A stretch of 64,000 nucleotides of DNA from Nymphaea colorata. Taxonomy: Eukaryota; Streptophyta; Magnoliopsida; Nymphaeales; Nymphaeaceae. How positions within the stretch are numbered: position 1 is the first letter of the stretch; every line of letters starts with the position of its first letter. Location of the stretch: NCBI RefSeq assembly GCF_008831285.2, contig NC_045147.1, positions 6,726,334-6,790,333 of the forward strand, read 5' to 3'. A model generated the notes under the pieces. It ran no database searches. It was not told the DNA's origin and was given only the letters and a program-made list of their open reading frames with translations. Positions 29,392 to 59,456 of the stretch are shown here, piece by piece. A program made the position numbers and the translations under genes.

Positions 29392-29404
29392 TGGTATCAG
29401 AGCC
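29392..29404 (+). other. Primer-binding site (initiator tRNA-Met)
   Basis: TGGTATCAGAGCC lies two bases inside the 5' LTR and complements the 3' end of plant initiator tRNA-Met, as is usual for Copia elements. Confidence 0.9.
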
Positions 29405-33538: not shown

Positions 33539-33874
33539 AAGTTTAAGTTCTTTAGTTTCATTCTGTGTTTGTGTTTTTTATCTCCATAAGAATTTTTAAA
33601 GTTGGACCAGTTGAGAATAGACATGTCGTAATCACATTACATATAATTCTCATGCTATACATCCATATCGGATCTATGTCATTGATTATGTTAACATTCG
33701 TGATTATTGAAGGTTTAGCTAATTTTATTATAGCGAAAACTGCTTTGGTCCTACGTTGATATGATCATGGACGAGACTGGTGAAAATGAGGTTTAATAAG
33801 ATAGCAATTATGAGCTCTTAAGGTTTTATGTAATGTTTGAATGTATAAAGACATATTTGGCTCAAGTGGGAGAT

Positions 33875-35640: not shown

Positions 35641-36300
35641 TATAAAAAACATGCATTAAGCATTTTGGACCTATGGTTTTCCCAAACACTTGACAAGAAG
35701 ATGAATTGGATATTGTCTCTTTACATCTATGCATGTGTCTTCTTGGACAAGAACTCTTTGTTCTGAAGAGACATGTTGTTCCTACTGCCAAGAGGTATGT
35801 TAAGGAATTGATCAAAATATTGTGAAATGAGAAACAAAAACATTTTAAAAATTCAATAAAAGTATCTATCATGTTCAACACACCCGAACATTATAATCAA
35901 TGGCCTAATCCAACATTCACAACTAGAGTTAGGTATTGGGCTGGGTTGCATTGACTCAAGACTCGACAAAGCCATGCTTGGGTAGGCCCAAAGCCGTTGC
36001 CAGAAGCTTGAACTCTGCCCCATTTGTCTAGGTTGACCTGGCCTGACTCAATCTAGAGAGAAAGAGAGGCAGAGGGGAAGCTGAAGGCGATCCACAAGTG
36101 GCCGTTGGCTGTCCCATCAATGTGCAAGCTGTGACGGATGATTGGTCAGGGACACTGGAACAAGAGAAAACGTGAGAGAGAGAGATGCAGGAGATATTTT
36201 AGTATGTATCGGGCCAAGTCGGTTCCCCAGTATATCGTCTTGGCTGGCCCGACTTGTACTACACTTTTATTGATGAAAAATTTGGGCATGTGGGCAAAGG

Positions 36301-36760
36301 ATATTTAATGAGTCAAACCAACTTCAGCTCAACTTGAACTTAGCTGAACTTGAATCGAACTCAATTCATTCAATAAATGAGTCGAGTTCAAGTTAAGAAA
36401 TACACTCACTTAAAAAGAGCTCGACCTAAGCAAGCTCGACTGGTTTAAACTTGAAGAAAGAAAATATATAAAAGCATCATACAATGTTGTCACAAAAAAA
36501 AATGGGCACAATCGAGTACCTTTACAAAAAGCAAGTATCAGGTCGTGAATTCATCAGGTCGTGAATTCAAACCTGAGCGTTTTCCTTTCATGGTCAACCC
36601 AAGCCAGATATCAGCTTGAGCTTAACCTAGCCAAGAACGAGCCTTCTTTAAGCTCGAATCGAGTCGAGCCAAGCTCCAGCTGCGTACTTCAGCTCAACTC
36701 AAGCCGAATTCGAGCTAGCCTAGCTCCGCTCCAATCCGGCTGGTGAACATCCCCCTGTAC
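36301..36760. repeat. GAGTCGAGC-type repeat, possible transposon relic
   Basis: Many AGCTCGA, GAGTCGAG and TCAAGTT words recur, and the block ends GTGAACATCCCC. It resembles 9055-9241 in word content. No inverted ends or target duplication were found. Confidence 0.4.
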
Positions 36761-36900
36761 CCGTGGGCCACACTTGCAGCCGGGCCCAGCCCATTCCGGG
36801 CAGGGTACCGGCTGCCCATGAGGTGCGGGGCCATGTGCCCTGCCTAGCCGGAAGTAGACTGGGCGGAAGGAGACGAGATTAAAGGGGTCTGCCCTGTTAA

Positions 36901-36924
36901 GCCTGTGCTTCGTGCCCGTCCGCG

Positions 36925-36981
<57 letters not shown>

Positions 36982-37002
36982 TGTGCTTCGTGCCCGTCCG
37001 CG

Positions 37003-37034
<32 letters not shown>

Positions 37035-37204
37035 GAGAGCGAGAGAGAGAGAGACGATAAAATGGGAATATGAGAGAGAGAGAGAGAGAGCGTGAGGTTG
37101 GGCTTCCTGCGAGTTCCAATCGATCGAGCTCTTCGCCGCTTCCGACTGACGTCTTCCGATCATGACTGAAGTTCTCTCTCTCTCTCTCTCTCTCATTCTC
37201 TCTC
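36901..37204. repeat. GA/CT microsatellites around the ZOP1 start, with duplicated 30-bp unit
   Basis: GCCTGTGCTTCGTGCCCGTC followed by CGCGGAGAGAG occurs at 36901 and again at 36979, each followed by a long GA run. Another GA run lies near 37072-37092, and a CT run starts right after exon 1 (37175-37204). GA repeats near plant transcription starts can bind BBR/BPC factors, so a promoter or 5' leader role is possible but not shown. Confidence 0.85.
37162..37170 (+). CDS. ZOP1: ZOP1 exon 1 (MTE)
   Basis: ATGACTGAA followed by GT at 37171. Tiny first exon ending in phase 0; start chosen because family members begin MTEYWVSQ. Confidence 0.8.
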
Positions 37205-40200
37205 CCTTTCCCTCTCTTTTTCTGTCCGTCCGCCCTCTTCCCCATCCCCCTCTCTCTTCCTTCCCTTCCTCTCATGCGTGTATATTTCATTTTGTCCGCT
37301 ATTGCAGAAAGCCTCTTCTTTAAGTTACAATTTATAATTTTTAGAGAAATAGAGAACCTGAGCTTGTGTACATGGTGGAGTTGGGAGTCTTTCTAGATTT
37401 TGGGCGTTGACCGTTTGGCTTAAGGGGAGATAGTCACTGTTAACCTCTTCGTTTTCCTATTATGGCATCCACTTTATTCTTCTTTGTGTTTTAATTGGAT
37501 GATTCCCAATTGTTGATTGTCTTGTCGGGATCATGTATTATTACATCTTATGATTTTCTTATTGGAACTCATTGCTGCAATGTTGGTGTTAAAAGGGCAT
37601 ATGTGTTTGCCACTCTGATTTGTGGTGCTTTCTTTCCTTTCAGTATTGGGTGAGCCAGGGGAATAAGTGGTGCGATTTCTGCAAAATTTACATAGCCAAC
37701 AACCCCTTGAGTATTAGGACTCATGAATTGGGCCAGAGGCATAAGGACAATGTGGCAAAAAGGCTTTCTGCAATGCGGAAGGAAAATGCTGCGAAGGAGA
37801 AGGAGAAAAAGGACGCAGAGCGGGCTCTTGAGCACATAGAAGCTGTAAGATGGTTTTCACTCCATTCTCGCTTTCTGCTGTTACCTAAAGTGTTATATGT
37901 AATGCACTTTATTTTTTTCACTTTTGCTCTACTATACTCAGATTTTAGAGAGGACATTTGCAATTGACAGTTTTACTGACCGCAGTTGCATGAATTAGCG
38001 TCGAATTTGACCACATAGTAAACTTTCAGTAAAGTTTGGTCTTGAGCTTGCCGACTGCCTGGTCAAGGATTTTGTGCTTGTTCTATTCTGTTGTATTGTC
38101 CGACTCGTGTTGAAGCAGATGAGTTTGAAACGGCCTTTTGGAAGTTGGAATTAGCATATAATTAATAATTCGAAAGACATTATTTGTAGTCATCAAATAA
38201 ATCTTTGAGTTAACCCTTCAAATTATGACTTGTATGATCACTCAAGGAGTTCTCAGATGGTTCGAACAATTCAGGGGGCATTTAGTCACTTCATACGTGA
38301 AATTGCAGTGTAAGATTTGGATAGGGATGGTACCAGATGAAATATTTTCTCAAATGCAAGAAATGTTTTTCTTAACTACAGGACCTCACATCATCTGATG
38401 TAAGATCTAAAAAGTAAACAGAAAGTTCACTAACCGTCAGACTTAGGAAGAAAGAGTCAGGGTTGAGGCAAAGAGTTAGATAGAGGTGGCTTTGCTTTTG
38501 GTTCCATCTTTCTATTTTCTTTCTTTTTCATCAAAGTTAAATTTTGTATGCATTTCAAAATTACAAAATTTAGGACGGGAGGTTTCATATTCTAAAACCC
38601 TTAACTGATGCAAGGTAGAAAGATGCACCGTAGGTTTCTTGAAGAAAACATCATGAAGGAAGGAGGGGTTTATGTGTTGCAATTAAATGAACACAAAAAT
38701 AGCTTTAGAATTCATAGGTAATTGTATCTGAATAGTGAACCACAAAATAATCTTTGGACCTCTTCGGAGTTTTTAACATCTGAAAAATTTAGCTTTTTTT
38801 TTTAACCTTTAGAGTGTATGTATGATAGCGGTTGCTTAATCCTACTCACACACCCGAGAGAAGCCCAGCTTCAACAAGTCATTGTATTTCACATTTGGGT
38901 TTTCAGTCCCCATTAAGCTCAGTATATATCCCTTAAACAGGGTATCGGGTCTTATTAGTTGCTACTACTTACCTGACCCACTACTGACTACACAGGGTGA
39001 CAGCCACTTGTCCTAAGTCCAAACAGAATCTTGGAAATGAAATGAAATGTGATAAAAGGGGAAAACAGTTCGAGGGTTTTGGGTCCAGCTCTAACAACTT
39101 GTCCTCCCTTCTCTGACACCTTGTCCTCAAGGTGCGAAATCTGGGAATCTTTGCTGAATGTCTTCAGCCCGTTCCCAGGTAGCAGGGATATCGTCGTGAT
39201 GGTTCCGTTCTATGAGCCATTCTTCTTCTGCTCCCCTATTACTCCTGATTTTCCTGAGTCACAGTCGCCTTTAGGGATACATGGAAGGATGTTAGTCCAG
39301 AACTGGGGCTGTGGGGGCCTGCTTTTTAGCAATAGAGGCAGGACAAGGTTTAAGCTTAGATACATGAAAGACTGGGTGTATGGCACTGGCCTCTGGAAGC
39401 TGCAGTTCATATGCCAAGGGTCATATCCTGCACTTAATCCGATAAGGTTCGACGAAGTGTGGGGCGAGCTTGTTGTACCCCCTAGGTAGGTAGAATCCTG
39501 CTGCTTGGGTTGGTCTGCGCAAGTAGACCGAGTCTCCAGCATTGTATTGCTGGTCTTTATGCTTTCGATTGTATTGTATCACCATACGGTTCCGAGCAGC
39601 TGATAAATGCTCCTTGAGATCCTTAAGCACAACATCACAACACCTCAGGCGCATGTCTACTTCTTCCTCTCTTGCTTAACCAGGCTGGTACCTGCGAACA
39701 GCTGGGAGTGGCTTCCCATACACAACTTCAAATGGAGACATACCTGTAGAAGAATGCCAATGTGTGTTGTAGGCTAGCTTTGCCCACGACAAATAATCTG
39801 TCCACAACCTTGGTCGCTGACCTGCTCATTTGCAACTCGGTGCCCTGTAGCTGAAAATATTCCTTCCAAAATGCACTTAGGAAGAGGGGGTGACGGTCAT
39901 TACTGATGGAGCGTGGCATTCCATGCATTTGTCCAATGTAGTCTTGGAAGGACTGGCCACAAATTTGGCTGTGTATGGGTGGGCTGGGGGCACAAAATGG
40001 GCATACTTCGAAACACAATCTACCACCACCATAATCACTACCTTTCCCTGTGAGAAAGAGGTGGGGTTGGGGGGGGGGAGTCCTTCTATGAAATCCATAA
40101 AGAGGTCCTCCCAAATCTGCTCCGGAATTGGTCGTGGCTGCAGCAAACCAGCTGTTTCCATAGTTTCATATTTATTGCGTTGGCATAAGTCGCAGTTCCT

Positions 40201-43200
40201 AACATATTCTCTAATGGCTCTCTTCATGCCTAGCCAAAAGAAGGTGGGGTGCAGCTTGCGATACGTTCCTTCAGCCCCTTCATGTCCCGTTGCATTAACA
40301 ATATGGAAATGATCCAGGAGTATCGCTGGCAGGTCAGTTTCAAGAGGGATAAATATACTTCTGTTGTGATAGAGGTAGGGATGCTTCCATTCATCCCCAT
40401 ACGTCTGGTGAGGGGATGACTGTAATTGATCTTTGATGCACTGAACTGAGGAAGCACGCTGGTGAGATGCCCTAATTTGTTCCCACATGTCCAATTGAAC
40501 CCTTGACAAGGCTAGCAGGGTAGTTTCAGCTTGCTGTTCTGCTGCCCGTGACAGGCTATTGGCAGCACCATTGTCCTTTCCCTTATAAAACTGCACTTCA
40601 AAGTCGAAGCCCATCAGTTTGAAGATCTATCGCTAGAGAACAGGTGAGAGGGTTCACTATTGGAGGCAGAATCTTAAACTGTTGTGGTCGGTCGGCACTA
40701 TGAATTTTCGTCCCATTAAGTAGTGTTAGAATGTATGTATCCCATATGTATACATATATACATTTATATATATCACATATATTAGTCATCTAATATATGC
40801 TTTATATATATATATATATATTTTATATTTTGGGTACTTAGGACACCTATGTAATTTTCACTTTCTTTATGTATTTTTTCTTTATGTATTATTTTCTGTT
40901 TTCCCCTTTTATCCCTCTCCTTTTTCTATTTTTCATAGAGGGAGACTAGTCCCAACGGCTAGATTTCTAGCCGTTGGGACTGCCTCCTCCTTCTTCTCTT
41001 TGGCCCTCTCCTCTATAAATAGGGCAGCTCTCCCATTGTTTTAGGTATGGCTTTTTAGCCTACTTGTATCTCTTTGTGTGATTAATTTAAGTTCTTCTTC
41101 ACCTCTTGTTTGAGGGTTTGTGAGATTGACTTGTTGGTGAAAGCTTCAAGGCTGATATTACTTGAAGAGGTTGCTTCTTTGGGCCTGATTTACATGGTAT
41201 CAGAGCCTCGTCTTTGGCTCTTTGTATTGCTGCCATTCAAGATTGAAGGTTCAGTTTTTATTCTTGCGTTGGAGCTGTGAAGCACTCCAAGTGTTCGAGA
41301 TATTGCTTGCTGCAGTTTTACACAAGAAGAAGAGTGTTTTTGCTGGCTTCTTTTTGGTGATTTCTTGACGAAATCTAGCTCCCTTGGTGGTGAGCTCGTG
41401 GCTGTTGAAAGGGTGACTGGTTTCTATCATTGTTGAGTTTTTATCCTTGCCGTGGACTTCTTTTCACGTGGCTGCCATCTTCTTCATAACTTGTAAGTGG
41501 ATCTACCTTGTTGATTGTGCCCATGGATGACAAAGTCTCTTCTCTTCCTTTTCCCAAACTCTCATCAACAAATTACATACAATGAGCTAGAACTATGGAA
41601 CACTTTATTCGTAGTAAAAGCCTTTGGGGACTAGTTGATGAGACAAAACTTGAACCACAACTAGTCCTTACGAAAGTTGTTGATGGAAGGGCTATGGAAT
41701 TGGATGCAACCGAAAAAGAGAAGGTAATGGCTGAATACAACAAAAAATGGGAAGAATGGAGTGTTGGTCATCACAAAATCATTACTTGGATCTTGACTTG
41801 TGTTGACAATGCTACTAGCGGGCAAATCTCTAAATTAAATTCTGCCCTAGAAGCTTGGGAATATCTAAAGAAAACTCATACCATGAGAGATGTTGCTTAT
41901 ATGCATCATGTTCAACTCAAAATTCACAATCTTCAACAAGGAGATAGATCCATTAAAGATTATGTGGCTGAAATGGATCAATTGTATGATGAATTGAGTA
42001 TTTTTGAACCACATTGGACACAAGATCTTATTCTTAGAGAAAAGCAAATACAACGTGAGAAGTTTTACAAGTTTATCATAGGTCTTAGACCGGAATTTGA
42101 TGGTGTCAAAACCGCTTTACTTCATCGTTCTAAAACACCATCTATGAATGAGGCTATTGCGGAACTTCAAATGGAGGAAAATCGTCTTTGTCTTGATAAA
42201 GAGAAAGTCAACAATGTGCTTGCCACATCTAGGCCGGGGGCCCACTTGAGACCTTATAGACCTCCTCACTTCAATCGTACAAATGAAGGAACAAGGAGAA
42301 AAATTATTTGCTATCATTGTCAAGAAGAAGGACATACCAAGCCAAGATGTCCAAAACTTAGAATTTTTGATAAAAGAAGCAATGTTGCGGCTCAAATTCA
42401 AGAAGAGAAGAAAGAAGCAAGTTCATTCCAACTTGAGCAACTCATAAATGCTCTTCAACCTTTTCTAAAAGGAGGAAGCACACCTTCGACTTTGGGAGCG
42501 ACCGTGGCATCTACTTCTTCAAGTAAGTACTCTTGGATTATTGATTCGGGTGCATCTTTTCATATGACTCCTTATTCCCCTTCTCACTGAATGCACTAAA
42601 AATGATTCTTATTCCTTTGTGAAAACGGTGGATGGTACCTCTCTTGAAATTGATTTTATTGGAAATCTTGACCTAGCTTTTGGATCCAAAATTTTAAAAG
42701 TACCTCAAGTAAGACATATTCCTAAATTAAACTTAAATTTATTGTCCGTTTCTCAAATAGCCGACCTTGGTTTTGATGTAATCTTCTCACAATCCAAATG
42801 TTTGATACAGGATCGGATATCCAAGAAGATGATTGGGGAAGGTTTTAGAACAAATAATCTCTACTACATAGACTTTTTGGACCTTTCAAGACCATCTTGC
42901 AATATCTCCAAAGAATGTGACATTCAAACTTGGCATCAAAGACTTGGACATTCCAATATAGAAAAAATGTCTCATCTTCCATTCATGGAGAATTTTTGTC
43001 AAAAGAACTTTGATTGTAATGATTGTATTAAGGCTAAAATGAAAGCCTTACCTTTTGATAATAGAAATTTTATTGCCCAAAAATCTTTTGATTTGGTGCA
43101 TTCGGATGTGTGGGGACCCGCTCCTATTATGTCAAAAGGAGGATTATTGTACTATGTGATCTTTATTGATGATTATTCTAGGCATACTTGGGTTTATTTT

Positions 43201-46200
43201 CTCAAGCACAAATCGGAAGTATTCACAAACTTTAAGAATTTCTACAACATGATCTATACCCAATTTGGCTCAAATATCAAAGTCTTTAGAAGTGATTCGG
43301 GAGGAGAATTTATGTCAAATGAATTTCAACAATTTCTAAAAGAAAAAGGCATTGTTCATCAAAGATCTTGTCCTAACACTCCACAACAAAACGGAGTGGC
43401 CGAACGTAAACATAGGCACATTATTGAAACTACTAGAGCCCTTCTTTTATCTAAAAATGTTCCCAAAAACTTTTGGGCCGAGGCTGTTTTGACTTCAACC
43501 TATTTAATTAATAGAATGCCTACCAAACTTTTGAAACATATTTCTCCTTTTGAAAGACTTCATTATGTTAAACCTAATTACAATAGACTTAAAGTCTTTG
43601 GTTGCAAATGTTTTGTGTTAAGTGACAAAGACGATAAGCTTTCCTCCAAAGCTATTTGTTGTGTTTTTATTAGGTATTCCGAAACTCAAAAGGGTTATAG
43701 ATGTTATGATATTAAAAAAGATAAAGTTTATGTTTCTAGAAATGTGATTTTTTTAGAAAATGAAGATGGTTTCAAAGATGAACCCAAGAAACTAGAAGAT
43801 TATACTTTTCTTTGGACTAATGATATTGATGATGATGATGATATTGATGATGATTAACCCGATAAAGGTATAGAGGTACCAATTGAAGAAGTCAACAATG
43901 ATAATTCTACTCATATCATCCCTCCAAAAGAGATCTTAGTTTATAGAAGAAGAGACCCCCAAAATCAAGAAACTAATCAATCTCTTCCTAGGAGATCCCA
44001 AAGGCACATTAGGCCTCCTCAAAGATTTGTCTCTTATGAGTCTTTTTCTCCAAAATTTCGAGCTTGTATTATGGCACATCATTCTTTTCATGAGCCATCT
44101 TCTTACCTTGAAGCTAAAGAAGATCCCAATTGGATTGAAGCCATGAATCTTGAGCTTAAAGCTCTTGAAAGCAATGAAACTTGGGATATTGTGCCTCTAC
44201 CAACGGGGAAAAAGACTATTGGTTGTAGATGGATCTATAAAATCAAAACTAGAAGTGATGAAACCTTAGAAAGATATAAGGCCAGACTTGTTGCCAAGGG
44301 ATATGCTCAAGAATATGAGATTGATTATGAAGAAACCTTTGCTCCTGTTGCTCGCATGACTTCTGTTAGAACCCTTATTGCCATTGCCTCTGTTAAACAT
44401 TGGACTATTTTTCAAATGGATGTTAAAAATGCTTTCTTAAATGGTCACCTACAAGAAGAAGTTTTCATGAGTGCTCCCCCTGGTTTTGATCTACCCCAAA
44501 ACAAAGTTTTACGCCTTAAGAAAGCTCTTTATGGTTTAAAACAAGCTCCCAAAGCCTGGTTTGACAAGTTTAGTAGTGTCATGTTTAATCAAGGTTTTAA
44601 ATCTTGCTACTCTGATACTGCCATGTTTGTAAAAACTACCTCCGTAGGTGTAATTGTTTTATTACTGTATGTTGATGATATGGTTATTACTGGGAGTGAT
44701 GATGAAGGGATTATAGAGGTAAAACATTTTATTAGCAAATGTTTTCAAATGACTGATTTGGGAAGACTAACTTATTTTCTTGGAATTGAAGTTGCTTATA
44801 GCAAACAAGGTTATCTTTTTTCTCAAATGAAGTTTGCTAGTGAATTAGTTGACAGAACAGGTATCTCAGATGACAAAGTTGTGGATACTCCAACAGCACT
44901 GGGAGTAAAAATGAAAATTGATGATGGAGAGATATTGGAGAATCCCACTCCTTTTCGGCAAATAGTTGGCGCTCTCTCTTATCTCTCCATCACCAGACCT
45001 GACATTGCTCATGCTGTGCATGTGATAAGCCAATTTCAACAAAGACCCACCTCAGTACATATGGGAGCGGCAATGCGGATTGTCCGTTATGTGAAAAACA
45101 CTATCAACAAAGGACTATTTCTGTCTTCTTCTTCTATATTAGAATTAGTTGCGTATACAGATGCTGATTGGGGTGGAGATCCCAATAATAGGCACTCCAC
45201 CACTGGTTTTTGTGTGTTTTTAGGTGACTCCTTAATTTCCTGGCGATGCAAGAAACAGAATAAGGTATCGCTATCATCAACAGAAGCTGAATATCGAGCA
45301 ATGGCAACTACAACAATGGAGATAGTGTGGCTCAAAAGCTTACTGAAAGATATGGGAATTCATATTACGAATCCTGTCAAGCTTTGTTGCGACAACAAAA
45401 GTGCAATCTATATTGCTAGCAACCACACATTCCATGAAAGAACAAAGCATATAGAGATGGACTGCCATTATGTTCGTGAAGAGTTCCAACTTCCTTCAGA
45501 AAAACATAGATCTCTCCTACGTCCAATCAGAGTATCAACTTGGCGATTTCTTCACTAAAGCTCTCGCTGCTACCAGATTTAATTTTCTCTTTGGCAAACT
45601 TTCGGTTATCACACCGTAAGTTTGAGGGGGGGTGTTAGAATGTATGTATCCCATATGTATACATATATACATTTATATATATCACATATATTAGTCATCT
45701 AATATATGCTTTATATATATATATATATATTTTATATTTTGGGTACTTAGGACACCTATGTAATTTTCACTTTCTTTATGTATTATTTTCTGTTTTCCCC
45801 TTTTATCCCTCTCCTTTTTCTATTTTTCATAGAGGGAGACTAGTCCCAACGGCTAGATTTCTAGCCGTTGGGACTGCCTCCTCCTTCTTCTCTTTGGCCC
45901 TCTCCTCTATAAATAGGGCAGCTCTCCCATTGTTTTAGGTATGGCTTTTTAGCCTACTTCTTGTATCTCTTTGTGTGATTAATTTAAGTTCTTCTTCACC
46001 TCTTGTTTGAGGGTTTGTGAGATTGACTTGTTGGTGAAAGCTTCAAGGCTGATATTACTTGAAGAGGTTGTTTCTTTGGGCCTGATTTACAAGTAGTGCC
46101 TCCACTTCATAACTGCCATAATGATGGCCATGAGTTCCCTTTCATAAGTCGATTTTGCACTGAAGGCAGCTCTCATGACCTTACTAAAAAAGGCTATCAG

Positions 46201-49200: not shown

Positions 49201-52200
49201 GCCTTTGCAGCGGTGGAACAACACGAAAATCAAGTGGAAACAGCGCCGCCTGGAAGGGCGGATGCATGGGATGGATCGACGCCTGAACGCAGTGGACGCA
49301 TGGTTGGAGGCCATGATGGTGGAGCAGCAGGCGATGTCGGCGCTCTTGCGTGAAAGCCTGCGACAAGGCTCTCAGCAACAGTCGCTTGATTCCGATCAGA
49401 CCCAGTCGAAAGAGTGCAGGGAGCAGGGTTGGCCAGGGAACGGAGGCGCAACCTGGCGCCCAATGAAGATGGATTTTCCGCGGTTTTCCGGAGACGACCC
49501 CGTCAGTTGGGTATACCGCGCCGAACAGTACTTCGATTGCCAAGGGATTGTGGGCGACGAAAGAGTACGTCCAGCAGTAGTTTATTTTGAGGGTGCGGCG
49601 ATATGCTTGTACCGTTGGTTGGTGTCGCAGCAAGAAAGACCAGACTGGGCGACCTTGGAGAAAGAGCTCACGTCGCGCTTTGGGCTGCCGGCATATCTCG
49701 ACTACAATGTAGAGTTGTCGAGCATTAAACAATCGGGTACGGTGTTCGAATACCAGGAACATTTTGAGGCGTTGATGAATATGGTGCATGGATGGCCTCT
49801 TCCAGCCCTCATTGGCGCGTTCCTAGCAGGATTGAAGGATGAAATACGCATCGAAGTCCAAGCGATGAAGCCACGAACATTAATGGACTGCTTTGAATTA
49901 GCCGGCACGGTGGAGGAGAAAAACGAACAGCTGCACACGTTCAATCGGAGCACTTTTAGCAGGACGTGAGAACCAGCCCGCGCGAGACTTTCCATAAGGC
50001 GTGTTCAGATGCGAGGAACAACCCACAAGAGAAGTCGAAATCTGATGTTTTTCCACCTGCCCTAGGAAAAAATCAGAAGGGAAATGCGCCGCGCCAAGTT
50101 GTGAGACATTTGACGCTAGAGCAAATCAAGGAGAAGAGACGACTGAACCAATGTTTTCATTGTGATCAACCGTACGTTCCAGGCTATGTCACACGGGTAC
50201 GGGTACGATAAGGGTACGGGTACGCGGACACGACAATTTTCAAAATTTTAGGATACGCGGACATGACGAATTTTATATTCTAAAAAATTAAAAAGGATAA
50301 TAAAATAAAAAAACATTAAATTAATAATTCACTCTTACAATCTCATAAGTCATAAGAAAGAAAGTCTCAGACTCTCAAACAAAACATTGTTAATCACCAA
50401 TCTCATAAGTCATAAGAAAGAAAGTCTCAAACAAAACAAAGAATGTCAGTTAGTAAAGTGGTTTGGATCAGGTCTAACCCAGACCCGATCCAAAACGTAT
50501 CCTACCGTGTCCAAGTGTCGGAGTGTCGACACCGGTACGCGGCCCATTTTTGACATGTCCATGTGACATAGGTTCCAGGGCATAACTGTAGACGCCTCGA
50601 TATGTAGCTCGTCGAGGAGAGCAACAAACCACTAGAGGCCAATGCGGATCCGCCCTTGGCCATGGAACCAGAGGTGGTGGAAAACCAAACGGTCCCCGAA
50701 ATTTCCCTGCATGCGTTGGTTGAAGATGAGGTTCCGCATCTCATGCGTGTGGAAGGCAAGTTGCGAGGCCGGCCAGTCAGCGTGCTGATCGACACGGGCT
50801 CGACTCACAATTTCATTTGTGAGAAATCTGCCCGGGCCCTGGGTTGTCATATGGAGGTTCAACCCGCCTTTGACGTGGTGGTCGGAGACAGGAGTACCCT
50901 AAGGTGCAGGGGTCAGTGCCAGATGGAAAGGTTAGAGATCCAAGGTTTTCACTTTCCTGTAAAGTTATACATTTTAGCCGTGGCGAGAGCCGACCTGGTC
51001 TTAGGCATCCAGTGGTTGCGTGAATTGGGAGATGTGGTATGAGATTTCATGGGCATGAGATTGCAGTTTAGGGGCCCTGCGAACGAAAGATTTACGTTGG
51101 AGACGAGCCCCAAGCGACCTTGTTCAGAAGCACCAGCTGTCCGCCTGATGAAGGGACCGTCTGCTTCTTTTCTCCTGCTATCCACTCAAGTGCAGGCACA
51201 TACGAAAGAGAAAGAGATCCGATTCGGCTCCGAAGAGTTTAAGAAAACACTGCAGGAAATGCTACAGAAGTTTGGGTCAGTTTTTAGCACGCCTAAGACG
51301 TTGCCGCCAGAGAGGGGATATGAACATCGCATTGAATTACAACCGGGAGCCGAACCTATCAAATCTAGACCGTATCGCTACAGTCGAGTACAACGAGAAA
51401 CCCTCAAAGAACTTTGTGTAGGAAATGTTGGAAGCACAGGTGATTCAGCCAAGTCGGCAGTCCCTTTGCTTTGCCCGCCTTGCTTGTCAAAAAGAAGGAT
51501 GGAAGCTGGCATTTCTGCGTAGACTATCGTGCGTTGAACGCCATCACTATCAAAGACAGGTACCTGATCCCCATTGTGGAAGACTTACTAGATGAGTTGT
51601 ATGAGGGCTGCGTTTTCTCCAAACTAGACCTGCGCTCTGGGTATCATCAAATCCATGTGGTGAAGGATGACATTCCTAAGACCGCTTTCCACACGCACGA
51701 CGAGCACTGCGAGTTCACCGTCATGCCTTTCGGACTGACGAATGCGCCTTCCACCTTTCAGTCGCTAATGAACGATGTGTTTCGCCCCTTTTTGCGAAGG
51801 TTCGTATTGGTATTCTTTGACGACATTTTGATTTACAGCAAGGGGGAACGAGAACACCTCAACCACTTACGAATTGTTCTAGTGGCTTTGCAACGACATA
51901 AGCTACACGCCAAACTTTCTAAATGTGTTTTTGGCAATCCCAAGATCTCTTATCTAGGGCATGTGATAAGTCATAGGAAGGTGAGCATGGAACAAGAAAA
52001 AGTCCATGCAGTGAAGGGATGGAGGGAGTACACCTAAAAACGTACGAAAGTTGTGTGCATTCCTGGGGCTCATGGGTTACTGGTCGCAACGACTCTCACA
52101 GTGCTACTTAAGAAAGGTTGTTTTGCATGGAGTATTCAAGCCGAACAAGCATTCCAACAACTCAAAGAGGCGGTGACTACAACCCCGGTTTTACAGATGC

Positions 52201-55200
52201 CTAATTTTCAGCTTCCCTTTACCGTTGAGTCAGATGCATCCGATTTGGGGGTGGGAGTGGTCCTGAGCCAACAGCAACACCCAATTGCTTATTTCAACCG
52301 AGCAATGGGCTCGACATTTGCGAGTAAATCAGCATACGAAAGAGAAGCAATCGCCATAGTGCTTGCCGTCCTCAAATGGAAGCACTATCTTCTAGGGCAA
52401 CAATTTATTGTCTTAACCGATCATTGCAGCCTCAAGCATTGCCTGCAACAGCCCACCCTATCTTCATCACTGCAAAAGTGGATGCTGAAATGGATGAGCT
52501 TTGATTTCAAAATCCCCTATCGCAAGGGGAAAGAAAATGCGCCAGCGGACGGGCTGTCCCGATCCCACGACCAACAGGTTAGTAGCTTATTTTCAATTTC
52601 ACAAGTCCAGGCTCACTTGTGGGATGAGATTCGACAGGTGCAAGAAAGAACCAACTCGGTAAAGAAAATTAGGGAAGAGTTGGAGCGGAATTCCCTTAAG
52701 GTGTATGGGTATGAGTGGTGATCACCATACTTATATCGCAGCGGATGCATCTTCGTTCCACCCGAGTCCACCCTACCGCAAACCCTTATACAGCATTACC
52801 ACAATGAGCAGACGACTGGTCATGAAGGAGTGGAGAGCACTTACCGTCGGCTACGACCTACTTTTTATTGGCCGGGGATGAAAAGAGCCATCACCGATTT
52901 TGTAAGGAGATGCGACATCTGTCAATGGAACAAATATGAGACCATGAAGCCAGCTGGACTGCTTCAACCCCTTTCCACACCTGAGCTTATATGGGAAGAC
53001 ATATCACTGGATTTCATAGAAGGCCTACCCTCATCCCAAGGAAAGTCTGTTATTTAGGTAGTGGTGGACCGCCTATCAAAATATGCACATTTCGTGCCAT
53101 TGTCGCATCCATATTCAGCAAAGACGGTAGCCCGGGCCTTCCAAGATCATATTGGGAAGCTACATGGAATGCCCAGGTCGATAACCAGCGATAGAGATCC
53201 CATCTTTATCAGTGTTTTCTGGAGGGAATATTTTCAATTACAGGGCATCAAGTTGCAGTTGAGCACAATGTACCATCACAAATGGCCAAACAGAGGTAGT
53301 AAACATGTGCCTCGAAACTTACTTACGTTGTTTTGCAGGGCAACGCCCATGCTTTTGGGCAGATTATTTGTCATGGGCTGAATTCTCATACAACACAAGT
53401 TGACATTCCTCTACCGGTGTCACACCATTTGAGGCGGTGTACGGGCGTCCTCCTCCTACTATACGTCACTACCAGCCTAACACAGCGAGAGAAGAGTCAG
53501 TGGGCACTCAACTCCGCTGCCGGGACACCATTTTGGGAGATCTCAAGACACATCTCGCAGTGGCACGCAACCGCAAACACCGGGACCAGCAGTACAACGT
53601 TGACGAGTGGGTGTACTTACGTAGGCCGACCCACGCAGCAGGGTATCGTCGGCCACGAGGGTACAAAATCATTAAAATTTAGTAAATAAAATAAATGAGA
53701 AACTAATATAAAAACATCAAAAAACTAACTAGATAAGCAAGAAATGAAAATTAGAAAATGGAAACTGGCACTCTAACAAATACCAAAAACACAGGTTATC
53801 TAATGGCTGAAGTGTCGGATGGGATGATTTTCTGGGTTTGCAGCAACCCTCACCTTCGACGCAGGTTATCACTCGTCACTCCTCAAACCCTCATACCCCA
53901 AACGCAGCTTCCTCACTTCTCAAACCCTTACCGAAGAGGCAGACACTTGGTAAAAGGTTAGGCGCAGCTGGAAGATGCAGCTTCCACTCTCTCGTCTCAC
54001 ACGAAAGGTAAAGTTAATAAACCCTATTCACTAAAAGTTAGAGTTAAGTACCCTTTGTGCCATTAAAAAGAAATTTCAGTTCAAAAAACACCCTTTGTTC
54101 TTTACTTTTAACACGTTAGACCCTTCTTTAACAAAAGAATTCATCACATGCAGTTTTTATGAATTAAAAATTTAAAACCGTGCGCAAGAACATATAGACA
54201 GCACAGAAGTTCAGTGGCGAAAAAAAACGATTTTATCGCGATAAATATTTTTTGCCAATATTTTCAAAATATCGCGATTTTTTGGCTTTTTTTTGTTTTC
54301 CTCTTTTTTAACATTTATATCGCGATATTTTTGAAAATATCGCGATATCTTTGACACTGTTGGTGCCTAGGCTGGCGCTTAGGCTCACCTAGGCTGGCCT
54401 AGGCATCAATACACCTAGTCCATGGGAAAGTGAAAAGTCACCTTTCCTTTCAATTAAAATTTCTTAATTGAGTATATATTGTTGTGTACGTTATTTTGTT
54501 TTGATTACGTATTTTTATGTATTGTTATGTTGATTATGTTGTTACATGTATACTGTTATATGTCTATACTGTTAGTCATTTAATCGATTATATAGTATTG
54601 TGATAACTCATACCTGTTATATGTATACATTAGTACGGTTATATCACGTGCTTATATCATATAGTTATATGCATTGTTAATTTGTTATACCTGTTATACA
54701 CTTATATGTATATACTATTATGTTAAATTGTATGGTCATACAGTTTGTTATTCCTGTTATATGTATTATAATACGTGTTATATGTATATATTGTTATGTA
54801 AGTCTGTTCTACCTGTAATATAGTATTGCATCAACCTCTTATATGCATATACTGTAAGCCTGTTATATAATATTTGTGGTGCCTGTTATATAATATGGTT
54901 ATGTACTTATATGTATTGTTACTGTTGTGTACTTATATGTATACTTTTATGTACTGTTAGTCTTTTTTGTTATATTGTCTTTCTTTAAGTACAGATGGAT
55001 TAAAGCCTTTTTGTGTATTTACATTCCTCCCTCTAGAGAATAGATTTTTTTTTTTGTTTCTTGTATTAGATTACATTTAATGAGTAATGTTAAATTTCTT
55101 CTATTGATTTTGCACATTCAATGAAGTCAACAATTATTTTTTTATTGTTTAAATTTATTATACTTGTTATATTACTACTCTCCACATTTCAAATATTAGT

Positions 55201-58200
55201 AATATTTAATCAAAATAACATGACATATTAACATAACTAAAAAAAAATTGGTCGCCTTTTTTGCCTAGGCTCGCCTAGGCCTGCCTAGGAGCTAGGCTCT
55301 CCTGCCTGGGTGCCTTGACAACATAGCTAAATCCCTAAAGCAATCCCACCAGAATGCTTGAAAAAAATTCAAATGAACATTAATGAACATCTAACTAGTG
55401 CTAAAAGAAATAAAAACATGAATCAAAATTAAGAATTGCCATGATCCATCTAAGATAATGCATGGAACAAAAGGCATGTAGAAACTCCTGCTGGGCAAAA
55501 CCCTAAATTCATGAATTCCCTTGAAGACACTTAATTTCAGTGTATCAAACATGATCCTAACATACTGGAATCTAGTCTGCAGCAAAACAATTTGTAACAT
55601 GACCTAGGACCTGCAATTGCTACAATATGGCACACTAAAAGAAAGGAAGCAAGATCCTTAACTGGCCAGCCAGTAGAGACTATTGACAACCCAAAACCCT
55701 AGCATACAATACCCAATCTTTAAGTTGCAGTTATACAGAAAATACAGAAGTACTGCGACACAAAAATGCCTAGGCCTTCTAAAACTCAGAACCGACACGT
55801 CATAGATCTACCTTAATCTAATTCTAAACTAAAGTTATCCAAACCCGCACAATAGCTAAGGAAATAGGAGCATCCAACTGGGTACCAACCACCAACGGGC
55901 TCTCTTCTTGAAGTTCCACCTTGTGCCTTTAAAACATAGATTTAAATACATGGAAAAATGTGTTAAAGCAGAGAACATGATTGGAGTTCCGATCTCATCA
56001 CTTAACCTAAATTGCCATTATGGGCTGTTTCTACACAGAAAGAAAACTGTTATGAAATTTCATTTATTACTTCAAGTTGTCAGGGTCTTTGGAATGGCCA
56101 ATCTAAGCAGGATATGGATGGAAAGTTTCCACAGTGACCTCTGTACATACTGTTCCTTCCATCTTATTAAGTACATTGCTCTTCTTGATGCAATATGTCT
56201 TGCAATATTGTTTTTTTAGAACTTTTTGAAGATATCCTTCATTTGTTCTCATCAGAGTTTACTATTTCTTCTATCCTTTGCTGATTAGCTACTAACACCA
56301 TAGCTCGAAATTCAGCTGCCAGGTATAAAAGGTTTTCAATTAATAATTAGCAACCAACGATGTATTTAGTGTAGTGCCATAAACAACACTAATTTTTTAA
56401 AAGATACCCAGTGTGGCGTAAACTAGACATGGCAGATAACTGTACCTCCTTGTAAGCCTTCTCAAGATAACAGAAGAAAGAAGCCATTGTGAAGTGAGTG
56501 GATGTTTGGTCCTTCTTATTTGATACATCTCTGAGGCAGCATGTTCTGTGCAGAGAATCATATTGCCGAAATATATTGGATTCTCCCATTGAACTTCATC
56601 CCTTGCTTTGGAATTCTGAAGCGCTGCCTGATGACCCAGCTATAGAGAAACGTGATTTTATTTTTTTAATTGATTATTATTATTATTATTATTATTATTA
56701 TTTTAACTTGTATTGGAGAAAACCAAGTTTTCTCAATCCATTATGCATGTCATTATCATGTTCCTCTTTGGCTGTCCCTGAATCTCTTGCTGGCCAGTTA
56801 GCAATCGCTTTAGCTTGCAGCAAGGCATGCATTCCATGGCTGATTCTAAAACACTAGCAGTTTTAAAACTTTCTCACCTAGTCAAGTGTTCCAGGCCAAG
56901 AATGGTACCTAGCACCAGGTATTGCATATTGTATGGGATGGGCTGATTAAAAGAACAGTTCGTTCTCAATGTTTGATGTCCAACTACAATGTCAGTACTT
57001 TAGAACTGTGCACTGCACCCCCATAAGGAGTGAGGTTATATTGTGTCAGAACTTGGTTCAATTAGAAAGTGCTGAACATCTTTTGAGTGCCTAATGATGT
57101 TGTTTCCAGTATTGGTTTAAATTTTACAATTAACATGATTTCAGATGTCTGAAGATCACAGGCAAAAAGAGCCCTGGATTTTCAAGTTCTAAGTTGGTTG
57201 CTAAGTATTTCTGAAAAGCATAGTTCTTCGAAGTTCTTGGTAAAATTTACATCCAAGTACGAACGGGTTTTGGAGTGGTTGCAGAAATCCCCTTTCTTTG
57301 GAAGAAAGTCTAGCTTGGACTTTTCCAGGTCACCAGTTTCATCAGAAGTAGTGAAAAAAATTGGCTTTCTGTGGATGCACTGAAATAATGAAATTAGTAG
57401 GATTTGTAGGTTTACATCCTTAATCTGTTACGAGCCATTAGGTTATGAATAGTGTGCTTGGAAACACATTGATTTCTTGGTTTCCTCTGGTTTTCTATTG
57501 TATTAGAATGGCATACATAAGAATACTGTGACTGCATCACAATTTCCAAAATTTAGCTTAGAATAACAACCTTTCTTGTTGAATTACTGCACCTCAGTGC
57601 ACTTTTCTGTCTCATGCACCCTAGTAATGATAACGTGCCACTTAACAATATGGCAGCCTTCTTTTTATTGAATGACTATAAGTTACTTGGAAGAGTGGCT
57701 ACTAACTGGTCCTTGGACTGCTTGTCAATCAGTTTGCAAAAAGAGAAAGAGAAAAGCGTATCATAGTTTGTTTGAAGTGTACTGAACATGATAAGCACTA
57801 GTCAAGTATTTAGTATTCTTTATCACTTTACATCCTTAATCTAGCTGTAAGTAGGTTCTGGACCTAATTCCTATGAATAATACACTTGGAAACATATTCA
57901 GGCATGCTGATTACTTGGGCCATCTATTATTCTACAGTATCAGAATGGCACACCGCACACAATCTCCTTTACCAAAAAATTAGCTTGAGATAACTAGTAT
58001 TCTTAGTGAGATTTTGTTGCATTTCTGTGGCAATGTGCTACCCAAAGATAATTGCTTATTCTTTAACTAAATGATTATGAATTCCTTCGAAGAGTGGCTC
58101 GTCAGAATAATCACAAGGTATAAAATTCAATATTTTCTATTGATTCTTGTTGAATGTTTGTACTGTATCTTTTTATTAAGTCTTTCAGATGTCTTGAACT

Positions 58201-59075
58201 TAACAATATCTTGTCACACCTGGAAAAAGTGCTGCGTTTTAGATTTTCATTTTTGCATTGAATGATGTGCTATAATACAATATTGTGGATGAATCTGGGC
58301 ACTTCTTTAACATCTTGAAAATTCTTCATCTTGACAATTCGTCTGTCTATTTGCCAGAAAGCTAAGCAAAGTTATCAAAAGGATTTAGCTTCTTTTCAAG
58401 GGGCAAGAAGGGAGACTGAGCTGAAAACTGCTCCACCAGGAGATGGTAATGATGACACCTAAAGCTATATCTATTAAACTGTTGAAAAGTTCCAGTCTGA
58501 TGCTATAATTGTCACAAATATTGTTCTTGGGTTTTTTATCGGTGATGTTTTTCTCAAAATTTAATGGGGAAATTTGTTTTTCCTTGGGAAAATCTTGAAG
58601 CTCAAAAGTAAAAAATATACATATATAAAAAATAATAGAAACAGATTATGAAGATTTGGGGTATTCTACTAATTTTCTTCCTACAATATTAGTCAAAATA
58701 CAGAATGCTTAATAATATATTGAAAACCTAAAAAAAGATTAGAGCACAGTGTAAACCAATTTTTCTTAGAAAAAGGAAAAAAATGTGACAGAAACACCTT
58801 ATTTCCATTTAGGCATTTTATAAAATATATTAGTTTTTTTCTATTTTATGACTTTCTTTATTTTCCACTTTTGTTTTACATTGCTTGAAAAAAAATGTCG
58901 AAATTTGTGACAGTGGACGTACCATCTAATCAAGTTAAGCACTTCTATTGTCACTTATGAATTGATTTTGGAATTACAGATTGGCAATACGATTCTTCTT
59001 CTGGCTATTACTTTAATCAGGCCTCAGGGTACTATTTTGATACAGATTCTGGTTTATACTACTCAGACAACATAG
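37162..59075 (+). CDS. ZOP1: ZOP1-like zinc finger and OCRE domain protein, 5' part of gene, exons 1-4
   Basis: Coding sequence joins 37162-37170, 37644-37844, 58358-58445 and 58980-59075 (394 nt, 131 codons plus one base). The protein begins [18 protein letters not shown] with a matrin/U1-type C2H2 zinc finger (Cys pair in WCDFC, His pair in HELGQRH). A charged coiled stretch follows ([17 protein letters not shown]), then a linker, and then the aromatic OCRE repeats ([21 protein letters not shown]). Order and content match plant ZOP1, a nuclear nucleic-acid-binding protein known in RNA-directed DNA methylation and splicing. All introns are GT...AG and phases agree. Intron 2 is 20,513 bp and TE-filled. 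The exon after 59075 (expected to continue HWVT-like) is not visible, so the C-terminus lies beyond the window or is lost. Confidence 0.9.
37644..37844 (+). CDS. ZOP1: ZOP1 exon 2 (zinc finger), 67 codons
   Basis: Preceded by CTTTCCTTTCAG and followed by GTAAGA. It encodes the whole zinc finger and the start of the coiled stretch. Read-through of the donor keeps a frame open to 37967, which would give a truncated protein if intron 2 were retained. Confidence 0.95.
37845..38814 (+). other. ZOP1 intron 2, left flank without recognised elements
   Basis: AT-rich intronic sequence from the donor at 37845 to the inferred edge of the Gypsy element. No other gene is seen. Confidence 0.6.
38815..39096 (-). 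repeat. Probable 3' LTR of the minus-strand Gypsy
   Basis: On the minus strand it begins TGTTAGAGC directly after the purine tract GAGAAGGGAGGACAAG. It contains TTTAAGGGATATATAC and CTGGGCTTC blocks that resemble the LTR at 48889-49143. The far end is set at a TG near 38815 by length analogy only. Confidence 0.5.
39097..40718 (-). pseudogene. Gypsy pol, RNase H end, integrase and chromodomain-like tail
   Basis: The segment 40614-39877 reads [20 protein letters not shown] (end of RNase H). It then shows the integrase HHCC zinc-binding part (HGxEG...[12 protein letters not shown]) and the first catalytic Asp ([12 protein letters not shown]) with [15 protein letters not shown]. Downstream, after frame changes, comes the region [20 protein letters not shown] near 39600 and a chromodomain-like [16 protein letters not shown] near 39150. 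Integrase inserts the cDNA; several frameshifts prevent a full product. Confidence 0.85.
40724..41194 (+). repeat. 5' LTR (471 bp), with perfect 34-nt palindrome and TATA box
   Basis: Starts TGTTAGAATG and ends GATTTACA. AGTCCCAACGGCTAGA and its exact complement form a hairpin at 40948-40981 with a TT loop. A TATA box (CTATAAATAG) follows at about 41013, so transcription should start shortly downstream. Confidence 0.95.
40948..40981. promoter_or_regulatory. Perfect palindrome in the Copia U3 region
   Basis: Two 16-nt arms with a 2-nt loop, conserved in both LTRs and about 33 bp upstream of the TATA box. It could bind a dimeric regulator as DNA or fold in a read-through RNA. Confidence 0.6.
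41195..41206 (+). other. Primer-binding site (initiator tRNA-Met)
   Basis: TGGTATCAGAGC directly follows the 5' LTR. Confidence 0.95.
41523..42590 (+). pseudogene. Copia gag-protease with an early TGA
   Basis: The family start is the ATG at 41523 ([15 protein letters not shown]). The codon for the conserved Trp after NYIQ is TGA at 41583-41585, and the frame is then open from 41586 to 42590. It shows a UBN2 gag domain (about residues 40-220), the zinc knuckle [14 protein letters not shown] and the protease site [12 protein letters not shown] frameshift near 42575 ends the frame at TGA 42588 while the protease/integrase linker continues in the next frame. One TGG-to-TGA change and one indel thus separate it from an intact gag. 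Confidence 0.93.
42619..43857 (+). pseudogene. Copia pol, integrase part
   Basis: A 412-codon frame includes the pre-integrase zinc-binding region ([13 protein letters not shown]...CNDC). The DDE catalytic core follows, with Asp in [11 protein letters not shown], Asp in [11 protein letters not shown] and Glu in [13 protein letters not shown], then the C-terminal [18 protein letters not shown] region. It ends in an Asp-rich run at TAA 43855-43857; the next frame segment (44071) is in the same phase, so this is a single nonsense codon in the polyprotein. All three catalytic residues are kept. Confidence 0.93.
44071..45558 (+). pseudogene. Copia pol, reverse transcriptase and RNase H
   Basis: The frame holds the RT blocks ([44 protein letters not shown] and the catalytic [13 protein letters not shown]). 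RNase H follows ([43 protein letters not shown]). Near 45500 a frameshift replaces the family C-terminus; the true ending ([18 protein letters not shown]) continues in another frame to about 45620. Coding in the same phase extends upstream to 43858. Confidence 0.93.
45633..46091 (+). repeat. 3' LTR (459 bp)
   Basis: Nearly identical to the 5' LTR. The 34-nt palindrome is at 45842-45875 and the TATA box at about 45907. Confidence 0.95.
46097..47344 (-). pseudogene. Gypsy pol, reverse transcriptase and start of RNase H
   Basis: Minus strand 47087-46653 encodes [35 protein letters not shown] and [16 protein letters not shown], the classic RT blocks (GLTNAP here GQTNAP). The YVDD region near 46650 is disrupted by an A-run frameshift (VFFL then YLDIQ). 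RNase H starts at 46284 with [18 protein letters not shown] and stops at WRHYL, where the Copia target duplication lies. Its continuation is at 40718 and lower. Confidence 0.87.
47447..48836 (-). pseudogene. Gypsy gag and aspartic protease, broken
   Basis: The gag region spans 48836-48080 in several frames (for example [40 protein letters not shown]). The frame 48034-47447 carries a CCHC-like knuckle [14 protein letters not shown] and the retropepsin site [15 protein letters not shown], where the usual DTGST reads DKGST. Stops lie within gag. It is related to, but clearly diverged from, the + strand Gypsy gag at 49174. Confidence 0.83.
48889..49143 (+). repeat. Single LTR (255 bp) between the two divergent Gypsy bodies
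   Basis: Starts TGTTAGG and ends GCTAACA, a near inverted pair of termini. The order of T-rich U3, TTAAACCCTCTTAAGGG and the GGGCTTCC block, and the adjacent primer site, put it in plus orientation. Confidence 0.75.
49174..50183 (+). pseudogene. Gypsy gag, frameshifted and cut by a MITE
   Basis: The likely start is the ATG at 49174 ([18 protein letters not shown]). A frameshift near 49230 moves to the frame open to 49969, which carries [40 protein letters not shown] and [19 protein letters not shown] of the gag domain. A further frame (49966-50183) reaches the zinc knuckle [11 protein letters not shown], which is interrupted at 50183 by the inserted MITE; the missing HNC part resumes at 50580. 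Confidence 0.87.
50184..50571. mobile_element. MITE, 388 bp, TIR CTATGTCACA, 8-bp TSD GTTCCAGG
   Basis: Termini CTATGTCACACGG and the complement of CCATGTGACATAG form an imperfect inverted repeat. The flanking octamers GTTCCAGG at 50176-50183 and 50572-50579 are identical. Removing the element and one octamer rejoins the Gypsy zinc-knuckle reading. Internally there are repeated GGGTACG words at the left, a ~50-bp tandem repeat (CTCATAAGTCATAAGAAAG at about 50342 and 50402), and a GTTTGGATC...GATCCAAAAC stem. The 8-bp duplication suggests the hAT superfamily. Confidence 0.92.
50580..51522 (+). pseudogene. Gypsy protease and RT leader
   Basis: After the MITE the frame carries the retropepsin site [20 protein letters not shown] (the active-site DTG is intact) and [16 protein letters not shown], with a TGA at 51042. 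It continues in phase through [20 protein letters not shown] and [15 protein letters not shown], then a frameshift near 51430 leads into RT. Confidence 0.87.
51471..52721 (+). pseudogene. Gypsy reverse transcriptase and RNase H
   Basis: RT blocks are well kept: [48 protein letters not shown] and the catalytic [14 protein letters not shown] (FDD). A short frameshifted connection follows 52037, then RNase H at 52180-52560 with [18 protein letters not shown], the YERE motif and [15 protein letters not shown]. The frame ends at TGA after YGYEW (52721). Confidence 0.92.
52722..53670 (+). pseudogene. Gypsy integrase, frameshifted and 3'-truncated
   Basis: The HHCC zinc-binding region is present ([12 protein letters not shown]...[12 protein letters not shown]), followed by [11 protein letters not shown] (first Asp), a stop at 53056, [14 protein letters not shown] and [12 protein letters not shown] (second Asp). 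The Glu motif TNGQTEVVN lies near 53280 in a shifted frame. The last recognisable piece is [20 protein letters not shown] to RRPRGYK at 53670, where unrelated AT-rich sequence starts. Confidence 0.88.
54236..54345. repeat. Cluster of four ATCGCGAT-type palindromes
   Basis: TCGCGA occurs at 54236, 54272, 54320 and 54340, three of them within ATATCGCGAT. The words AATATTTTCAAAATATCGCG and TATCGCGATATTTTTGAAAA pair as imperfect inverted repeats around an otherwise CpG-poor stretch. Confidence 0.85.
54362..55323. mobile_element. Possible small DNA element bounded by CCTAGGC arrays
   Basis: The left edge (54362-54421) and right edge (55258-55320) both carry clusters of GCCTAGGC and related words; the right edge ends GGTGCCTTGACAACA. 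Between them the DNA is very AT-rich, including a degenerate TGTTATATGTAT repeat at 54480-54970. The edges pair only loosely as inverted repeats and no target duplication was found. Confidence 0.4.
54480..54970. repeat. Degenerate short repeat of TGTTATATGTATA words
   Basis: Variants such as CTGTTATATG, TGTTATACCTG and TTATATGTATACTG recur more than a dozen times at irregular spacing. Confidence 0.7.
56672..56703. repeat. (ATT)n microsatellite
   Basis: An uninterrupted run of about ten ATT units. Confidence 0.95.
57411..58105. repeat. Diverged direct duplication inside ZOP1 intron 2 (offset ~416 bp)
   Basis: The left copy (about 57411-57700) and right copy (about 57827-58105) share, in order, TTTACATCCTTAATCT, TATGAATARTR-CTTGGAAACA, AGAATGGCAYAC, TTAGCTTRRGATAAC, TGTGCTACC/ACGTGCCACT and GGAAGAGTGGCT / CGAAGAGTGGCT. 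Divergence is considerable. Confidence 0.7.
58358..58445 (+). CDS. ZOP1: ZOP1 exon 3 (linker)
   Basis: Preceded by TATTTGCCAG and followed by GTAATG. Encodes [15 protein letters not shown] and a short linker ending GD, matching the segment after IEA in the family. Ends one base into a codon. Confidence 0.88.
58980..59075 (+). CDS. ZOP1: ZOP1 exon 4 (OCRE motif)
   Basis: Preceded by GGAATTACAG and followed by GTTAGT. The Asp codon split across exons 3/4 is restored, then [13 protein letters not shown] and [13 protein letters not shown] follow, the tyrosine-rich OCRE core. Ends one base into a codon (phase 1). Confidence 0.92.
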   Translation: MGNTILLLAITLIRPQGTILIQILVYTTQTT

Positions 59076-59456
59076 GTTAGTATATTCATAAGCTTGTGCA
59101 TGTCAAGTTAATTTAGCTACAGTTTTTGCTGCATCATGCAAAAGCTTGGTATGGAAATAGTAATGAATGCATGAACATGAACAAGGAAAATAATAGGAGG
59201 CTTCCTACTAGAGGTGAAACAAAAAAAAAGACCTTATATATATATATAGAGGTGGAACAAACAAAAAACCTTATATATATATATATATAATGAAGGAATT
59301 TTATAATATCAAACTTTGATTTAATGACCACAGTGTTAGTTAGCAGAAAACTTATGAAAAAGAGACACATATGTTGTCAAGGGATGGGCAGCAGCAGCAA
59401 ACACACCCTCAACCCTAATTTGTTAAATTGTTAAACATAACTATAAGCTAGATGGG
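59076..59456 (+). other. ZOP1 intron 4, first part
   Basis: AT-rich intronic DNA with two short TA runs (about 59236-59251 and 59271-59288), each following an ACCTTATATA word. No gene. Confidence 0.6.

Follow-up and report, generated by a model that had tools for sequence, protein, structure and literature searches.

The window analysed here, 64,000 nucleotides of Nymphaea colorata DNA (C10:6726334-6790333 on the plus strand; the assembly has 783 contigs and totals 407,766,735 bases), contains a gene for ZOP1 that runs past its right edge; positions above 64,000 continue the window rightward. We conclude that this gene is probably a working, intact ZOP1 in which two introns have been swollen by independent nested passengers, long terminal repeat (LTR) retrotransposons, and are normally spliced. 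When the exons are joined, the gene covers 49,965 bp from ATG to stop for 257 codons. ZOP1 acts in splicing and in RNA-directed DNA methylation (RdDM) in Arabidopsis (PMC4085605, PMC12406697).

The spliced frame of 774 nt, 257 codons plus the stop, is open throughout, and the phases fit at all joins. Its four introns measure 473, 20,513, 534 and 27,671 bp, and all have GT-AG borders (Table 1). A preliminary description of this DNA, made from the letters alone, had placed exons 1 to 4 and intron 2. Exon 1 lies where it was put, and on re-check the coordinates of exons 2, 3 and 4 and of intron 2 were exact to the base. It had also called for a search for exon 5 to the right. A query for the C-terminus of plant ZOP1 located exon 5 beyond intron 4, with 53% identity, as the sole match at E <= 10 in the assembly. 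The start motif ATGAC[N]GA[AG]GT of exon 1 occurs a single time in the 92-kb stretch, both strands included. A TC repeat abuts the exon 1 donor gttctc (37162-37223), and a better donor site may have been overgrown by it. Before the ATG lies a GA repeat (36900-37090) containing a direct duplication of 79 bp at 96% identity; this stretch is probably 5' leader or promoter. When intron 2 is retained, the frame runs to a stop at 37965-37967, close to position 37970 as first estimated.

The domain content of the spliced product agrees with the ZOP1-like identity proposed at the outset. A zf-U1 finger (PF06220, E 6.7e-9) occupies residues 11-43, and C-terminal to it an OCRE domain (PF17780, E 1.8e-13) occupies residues 99-141 and spans the intron-4 join at residue 132. 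Known ZOP1 likewise has zf-U1 followed by OCRE in one protein; here the gene for it spans 50 kb. An ungapped alignment to WW domain-binding protein 4 (WBP4, chain 5o9z_Q, E 1.5e-16), which we take to be the human protein, covers residues 1-82 and runs over the joins of exons 1/2 and 2/3. With the intron-2 join inside the WBP4 alignment and the intron-4 join inside the OCRE match, both long joins are backed by homology. The MTEYW start and the basic C-terminus ending in LLGLYR, presumably traits of plant ZOP1, are also present.

These joins bear on whether exons 1-2, 3-4 and 5 could be separate units, or the repeats between them misplaced by the assembly. It is general knowledge that assemblies fail at long repeat stacks and that annotation programs often break such genes. 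We nevertheless consider this very improbable, because the exons lie on one strand in the right order with fitting phases and homology over both long joins, each was found once only, and all five Copia elements described below have perfect target-site duplications (TSDs). An assembly gap is ruled out: the 92-kb stretch contains no N, and the long introns are therefore not scaffolding gaps.

We also looked for other copies of the gene. Searching the assembly with exons 2-4 gave, up to E = 1, five matches: these three exons, plus two with E values of 0.003 (on a small contig) and 0.3. Neither this query nor the C-terminal one yielded a convincing second copy or retrocopy, with the proviso that one could lie in sequence that is masked or missing. 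The preliminary description had considered an intact ZOP1 elsewhere in the genome, and no convincing candidate for it emerged. On these searches, the gene looks like the sole known intact ZOP1 copy in this genome.

Intron 2 had been described as a nest of retrotransposons, and our profile matches bear this out: Gypsy-type domains, a Copia element inserted among them with a TSD of AGTAG, and a second Gypsy-type element. The Copia element has gag, an integrase before RVT_2, an LTR pair and the 5-bp TSD. In the antisense Gypsy-type copy, RVT_1 is followed by an H2C2 integrase, with no RNase H profile match among the open reading frames (ORFs) scanned; in the sense copy, gag, RVT_1 and RNase H were matched, its integrase part lying outside the ORFs scanned. 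Self-comparison revealed no LTR pair for either Gypsy-type element, a comparison that lost or strongly diverged LTRs would escape, and both are probably decayed. The left border of the antisense element, 38815, is that of the preliminary description, and our own homology evidence begins at 39473. The miniature inverted-repeat transposable element (MITE) named there does have inverted ends, of 37 nt, at 54369-55298, and is MITE-like. Our own evidence from homology, domains or inverted ends (39473-48837, 49142-53666 and 54369-55298) assigns 72% of intron 2 to transposons, or 77% with the border at 38815.

Intron 4 is filled by a nest of four Copia elements, A to D, which makes up 81% of it, or 86% when the repeat at 59457-61050 is added. 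That repeat contains 71-bp internal direct copies (95.8%) and, by eye, GTCACGGGCTGAC-like ends in opposite orientation. All five Copia elements of the two introns have perfect 5-bp TSDs and a consistent nesting; without their guests, Copia A and Copia B are 7,030 and 4,731 bp long. Copia C looks recently inserted, because its LTRs are identical and it retains a 1,170-residue open frame (L001 6329-9838 = 70329-73838) with gag, integrase and reverse transcriptase matches. Related segments lie at both ends of intron 4 (59285-59452 and 86306-86470, 75%; 61085-61203 and 86490-86606, 70%). A genome search with the right-hand end segment found three places, namely itself, its intron-4 partner and a 61-base match on C5, and given this scarcity the segments are probably part of the older intron. 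Minus the recognised elements, introns 2 and 4 would measure 4.7 and 3.8 kb.

Table 1. Features of the ZOP1 gene and of its two long introns, in window coordinates.
Feature	Position	Strand	Remarks
ZOP1 exon 1, coding part (MTE, ATGACTGAA)	37162-37170	+	start MTE; weak donor gttctc beside TC repeat
ZOP1 exon 2 (zf-U1 zinc finger)	37644-37844	+	
ZOP1 intron 2	37845-58357	+	20,513 bp; gtaag at the donor, ttgccag at the acceptor; fitting phase
Antisense Gypsy-type element in intron 2	38815-48840 (approximate)	-	Integrase_H2C2, RVT_1, RVP_2; split by Copia; no LTR pair found
Sense Copia inside the antisense Gypsy-type element	40724-46091	+	TSD AGTAG; LTRs 40724-41194 and 45633-46091
Sense Gypsy-type element in intron 2	49142-53670 (approximate)	+	gag, reverse transcriptase, RNase H; no LTR pair found
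Short MITE-like element, ~930 bp, in intron 2	54369-55298	.	inverted ends of 37 nt (76% complementary)
Right-hand remainder of intron 2	55311-58330	+	sole genome match is itself
ZOP1 exon 3	58358-58445	+	
ZOP1 intron 3	58446-58979	+	534 bp
ZOP1 exon 4 (bulk of OCRE domain)	58980-59075	+	
ZOP1 intron 4, first part	59076-64000	+	total 27,671 bp; ends 22,746 bp past the window
Copia A, outermost in intron 4	63158-85466	-	TSD CTTCT; 63158-64000 inside the window
Copia B, inside A	65853-75973	-	TSD CAACC
Copia C, inside B	69093-74477	-	TSD GCTAT; unusual TA...CA ends
Copia D, inside A	78961-84108	+	TSD ACTTG
ZOP1 exon 5	86747-87126 (continued), C10:6813080-6813459	+	outside the window

The LTR pairs give relative ages for the five Copia elements. 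The LTRs of the intron-2 Copia differ at 1 of 456 aligned sites (plus 18 gap columns), those of Copia C at 0 of 430, of D at 0 of 246, of B at 8 of 213 and of A at 31 of 230, the last corresponding to a Kimura two-parameter distance (K2P) of 0.152. Substitution rates used for dating are 1.3e-8 or 7e-9 per site and year. At these rates the intron-2 Copia would be ~0.1-0.2, Copia B 1.5-2.8 and Copia A 6-11 million years old, and the faster rate sets upper bounds of ~0.3 million years for C and ~0.5 for D, ages that gene conversion between LTRs could make falsely young. Two of the young elements come from families rich in close copies: the intron-2 Copia has at least 77 matching pieces in the genome (40 of 475 candidates scored) and Copia C at least 80 (40 of 244 candidates scored), short internal matches included in both counts. 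With 1, 0 and 0 substitutions between their LTRs, three insertions are possibly polymorphic and the present gene length is geologically new; the size of ZOP1 may differ between plants.

The same ages raise the question of whether the gene still works. One or more of the young insertions may reduce or abolish full-length ZOP1, making this haplotype a hypomorph or null in which decay is pending. Three of the five dated elements, with 0-1 LTR substitutions, are too young for decay to be visible in the exons, two of the three large intron-2 elements and one of the four in intron 4 lie in sense orientation, and the exon 1 donor is weak. By contrast, the frame, the splice sites and both domains are intact, no substitute ZOP1 copy was found in the assembly, and Copia A, with its divergent LTRs, indicates that an insertion in intron 4 has long been tolerated. 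We therefore regard a damaged allele as unlikely, while giving it more weight than the other alternatives.

For an intact gene with passenger insertions, RNA polymerase II would read through all 50 kb of ZOP1, ordinary splicing would remove both long introns, and the intronic elements would be methylated. A pathway of the IBM2/EDM2 type would block polyadenylation within the introns. If that protection failed, the product would be 110 codons when transcripts end in intron 2, or 132 when they end in intron 4, stopping at once inside OCRE.

CG depletion served as a proxy for methylation. In the non-transposon parts of the gene body, flanking the elements on both sides, the CG observed/expected ratio is 0.00-0.51: 0.51 at 37845-38814, 0.25 at 55311-58357 (25 vs 99.7), 0.25 over exons 3-4 with intron 3, 0 at 59076-59450 (0 vs 8.8), 0.26 at 85472-86746, 0.34 in exon 5 and 0.34 in the whole coding sequence. 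Outside the gene, it is 0.84 in the kilobase before the ATG (36160-37161) and 0.80 at 87627-89500; farther downstream it is 0.48. The depletion fits a long-transcribed, body-methylated gene, as a weak hint from a proxy. In the LTR pair of Copia A, transitions affect 10 of 38 CG cytosines vs 13 of 161 others (both LTRs counted; Fisher p = 0.0037), and in that of Copia B 1 of 7 vs 4 of 138. Transitions and depletion together fit, weakly, CG methylation of the gene body and of Copia A; the transition sample is small and comes from intron 4, not intron 2. The LTR pairs carry no transition signal at CHG sites (0 of 32 in Copia A, 0 of 8 in B), a result that lends no support to simple CHG-methylated heterochromatin and may speak against it. 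The hexamer AATAAA occurs 7 times in sense vs 22 in antisense in intron 2, and 20 vs 12 times in intron 4. Because there is no single pattern, and plant poly(A) signals are degenerate, these counts were not used as evidence.

Several observations weigh against a normally working gene with methylated passengers. Sequence farther upstream has CG ratios of 0.53-0.58, and within the transposons, where the range is 0.37-0.87, the youngest elements reach down to 0.37; since both are depleted too, the CG argument carries little weight. Exon 1 has a weak donor, gttctc, and the youth of the insertions leaves room for a damaged haplotype. Finally, a gene for IBM2, combining BAH and RRM domains, was not seen at three loci holding 4 of 21 BAH matches, where 10 ORFs each, chosen by position on the BAH strand, were scanned. 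One of these loci is ORC1-like (PHD, BAH, AAA), another chromomethylase-like (BAH, DNA methylase), and the third has no RRM in its 10 ORFs. An RNA family search of the DNA gave no match, and a scan for bacterial-type promoters gave no promoter, with 2 terminator-like sites vs 1.2 expected.

The preliminary description had drawn a parallel to Arabidopsis IBM1 and suggested premature polyadenylation or feedback regulation. Under a feedback scheme, the intronic elements would make ZOP1 output depend on how well silencing and splicing work: were RdDM or splicing capacity lost, polyadenylation within the ZOP1 introns, or their retention, would increase, as at IBM1 with its methylated intron. ZOP1 has roles in both splicing and RdDM in Arabidopsis (PMC4085605), IBM1 orthologues have been proposed to sense via a methylated intron (PMC11265718), and read-through into either long intron would truncate the ZOP1 protein. 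Yet three of the five dated insertions are very recent, which argues against the present design being a conserved device; ordinary passenger insertion accounts for the structure; and in the excerpt of PMC4085605, the genes with retained introns in Arabidopsis zop1 excluded RdDM component genes. Self-acting control of ZOP1 would thus appear to lack a precedent seen in Arabidopsis. We judge the feedback scheme improbable, and hold equally slim the prospect that the ZOP1 introns are a live, lineage-specific gauge of silencing that puts the gene under the control of the processes it serves. The IBM1 parallel is apt for the general process. As for an old regulatory device, three of the five dated insertions are too young to form part of one.

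The intact, passenger-laden ZOP1 that we favour is an outlier for intron length in this genome. As a background, we took exon-by-exon matches of kinesin, myosin, Piwi and adaptin on chromosomes C1-C14 and measured the gaps between neighbouring exons, calling exons adjacent when at most 8 profile positions were unseen between them; the sample thus consists of introns inside conserved domains. Gaps >60 kb, gaps out of domain order and small-contig matches were excluded, as were 5 isolated kinesin rows, 3 single-exon genes and 5 isolated rows for Piwi, and 3 single-exon genes and 3 isolated rows for adaptin; kinesin counts are among the matches listed. Adjacent gaps numbered 36 for kinesin (median 112.5 bp), 68 for myosin (99 bp), 27 for Piwi (89 bp) and 38 for adaptin (624.5 bp). 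None of the 169 reached 10 kb and 2 of 169 reached 5 kb. Among all 217 ordered gaps, some of which possibly hide an exon, one exceeded 10 kb (11.8 kb) and none exceeded 20 kb, a length surpassed by two of the four ZOP1 introns. Length itself could serve as a timer, with long introns mainly holding back ZOP1 mRNA for as long as transcription takes to cover 50 kb. The ratio of 49,965 bp to 257 codons is what speaks for it. Against it, nothing indicates that ZOP1 depends on timing, and a large part of the length is recent and may vary; this is the explanation to which we give the least credence.

Further observations were made in passing. On some small contigs (such as C288, C464, C159, C87 and C223), kinesin, myosin and Piwi matches are unbroken where chromosomal copies have many exons, and these contigs may be contaminating organisms or intron-poor sequence. 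Isolated kinesin fragments of ~117 bp, with the same 39 profile positions and score, occur at C4:27691138, C10:21024031, C1:35090989 and C641:25314, and similar ones at C1:13157639 and on C537; they may be a fragment of a gene carried within a repeat. Elsewhere in the window, 28928-34336 has an LTR-like pair (93.7% identical) with Copia-type gag between and a related copy (88-89%) at 1-406, and 18999-23503 has a ~307-bp repeat pair (92% identical) around a minus-strand RVT_2 fragment (19712-20338).

ZOP1 with such introns has several counterparts in the literature. Like IBM1, it has a link to chromatin and a very long intron that may be heterochromatic; in the Theobroma cacao IBM1 orthologue, such an intron is methylated and 27.2 kb long (PMC11265718); unlike IBM1, ZOP1 is known here from sequence alone, and most of its dated insertions (three of five) are very young. 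RPP7 with COPIA-R7 (PMC7529245) likewise has an intronic Copia and possible premature polyadenylation at an LTR. It is an immune-receptor gene with one named element for which EDM2 control has been demonstrated, whereas ZOP1 is a splicing factor gene with two Gypsy-type and five Copia elements. In rice, ~11% of gene models have intronic heterochromatin, many of them transcribed, and OsIBM2 prevents intronic polyadenylation (PMC7145194). IBM2 and EDM2 keep poly(A) sites in heterochromatic introns unused in rice and Arabidopsis (PMC7145194, PMC7529245). The OsIBM2-dependent genes are, like ZOP1, ordinary genes with long transposon-bearing introns, with chromatin and transcription measured in rice and the DNA alone considered here. 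In Chloranthus, long genes and introns filled with LTR elements are common, and magnoliids have long introns (PMC8626473, PMC8626421). LTR elements are a main cause there as here, but long introns are widespread in those plants while the introns sampled in Nymphaea are short. Among open-licence PubMed Central full texts, we found no mention of ZOP1 in Nymphaea, and ZOP1 combined with intron, transposable element and retrotransposon matched only a text on wheat vernalization. ZOP1 is an extreme example of the transposon-filled introns that plants are already known to tolerate.

A small, apparently single-copy gene here tolerates roughly 37-40 kb of transposon sequence in its introns, while the sampled family intron medians of this genome run from 89 to 625 bp. 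Gene prediction with intron length capped near 20 kb would split it. If the introns did act as a gauge of silencing, plants with and without the three young insertions may coexist and would provide a series of naturally occurring alleles for a self-sensing gene. Because of its link to splicing and RNA-directed DNA methylation and its several very young insertions, ZOP1 would be a useful test case for the limits of splicing across heterochromatin and for whether insertion alleles differ in ZOP1 output.

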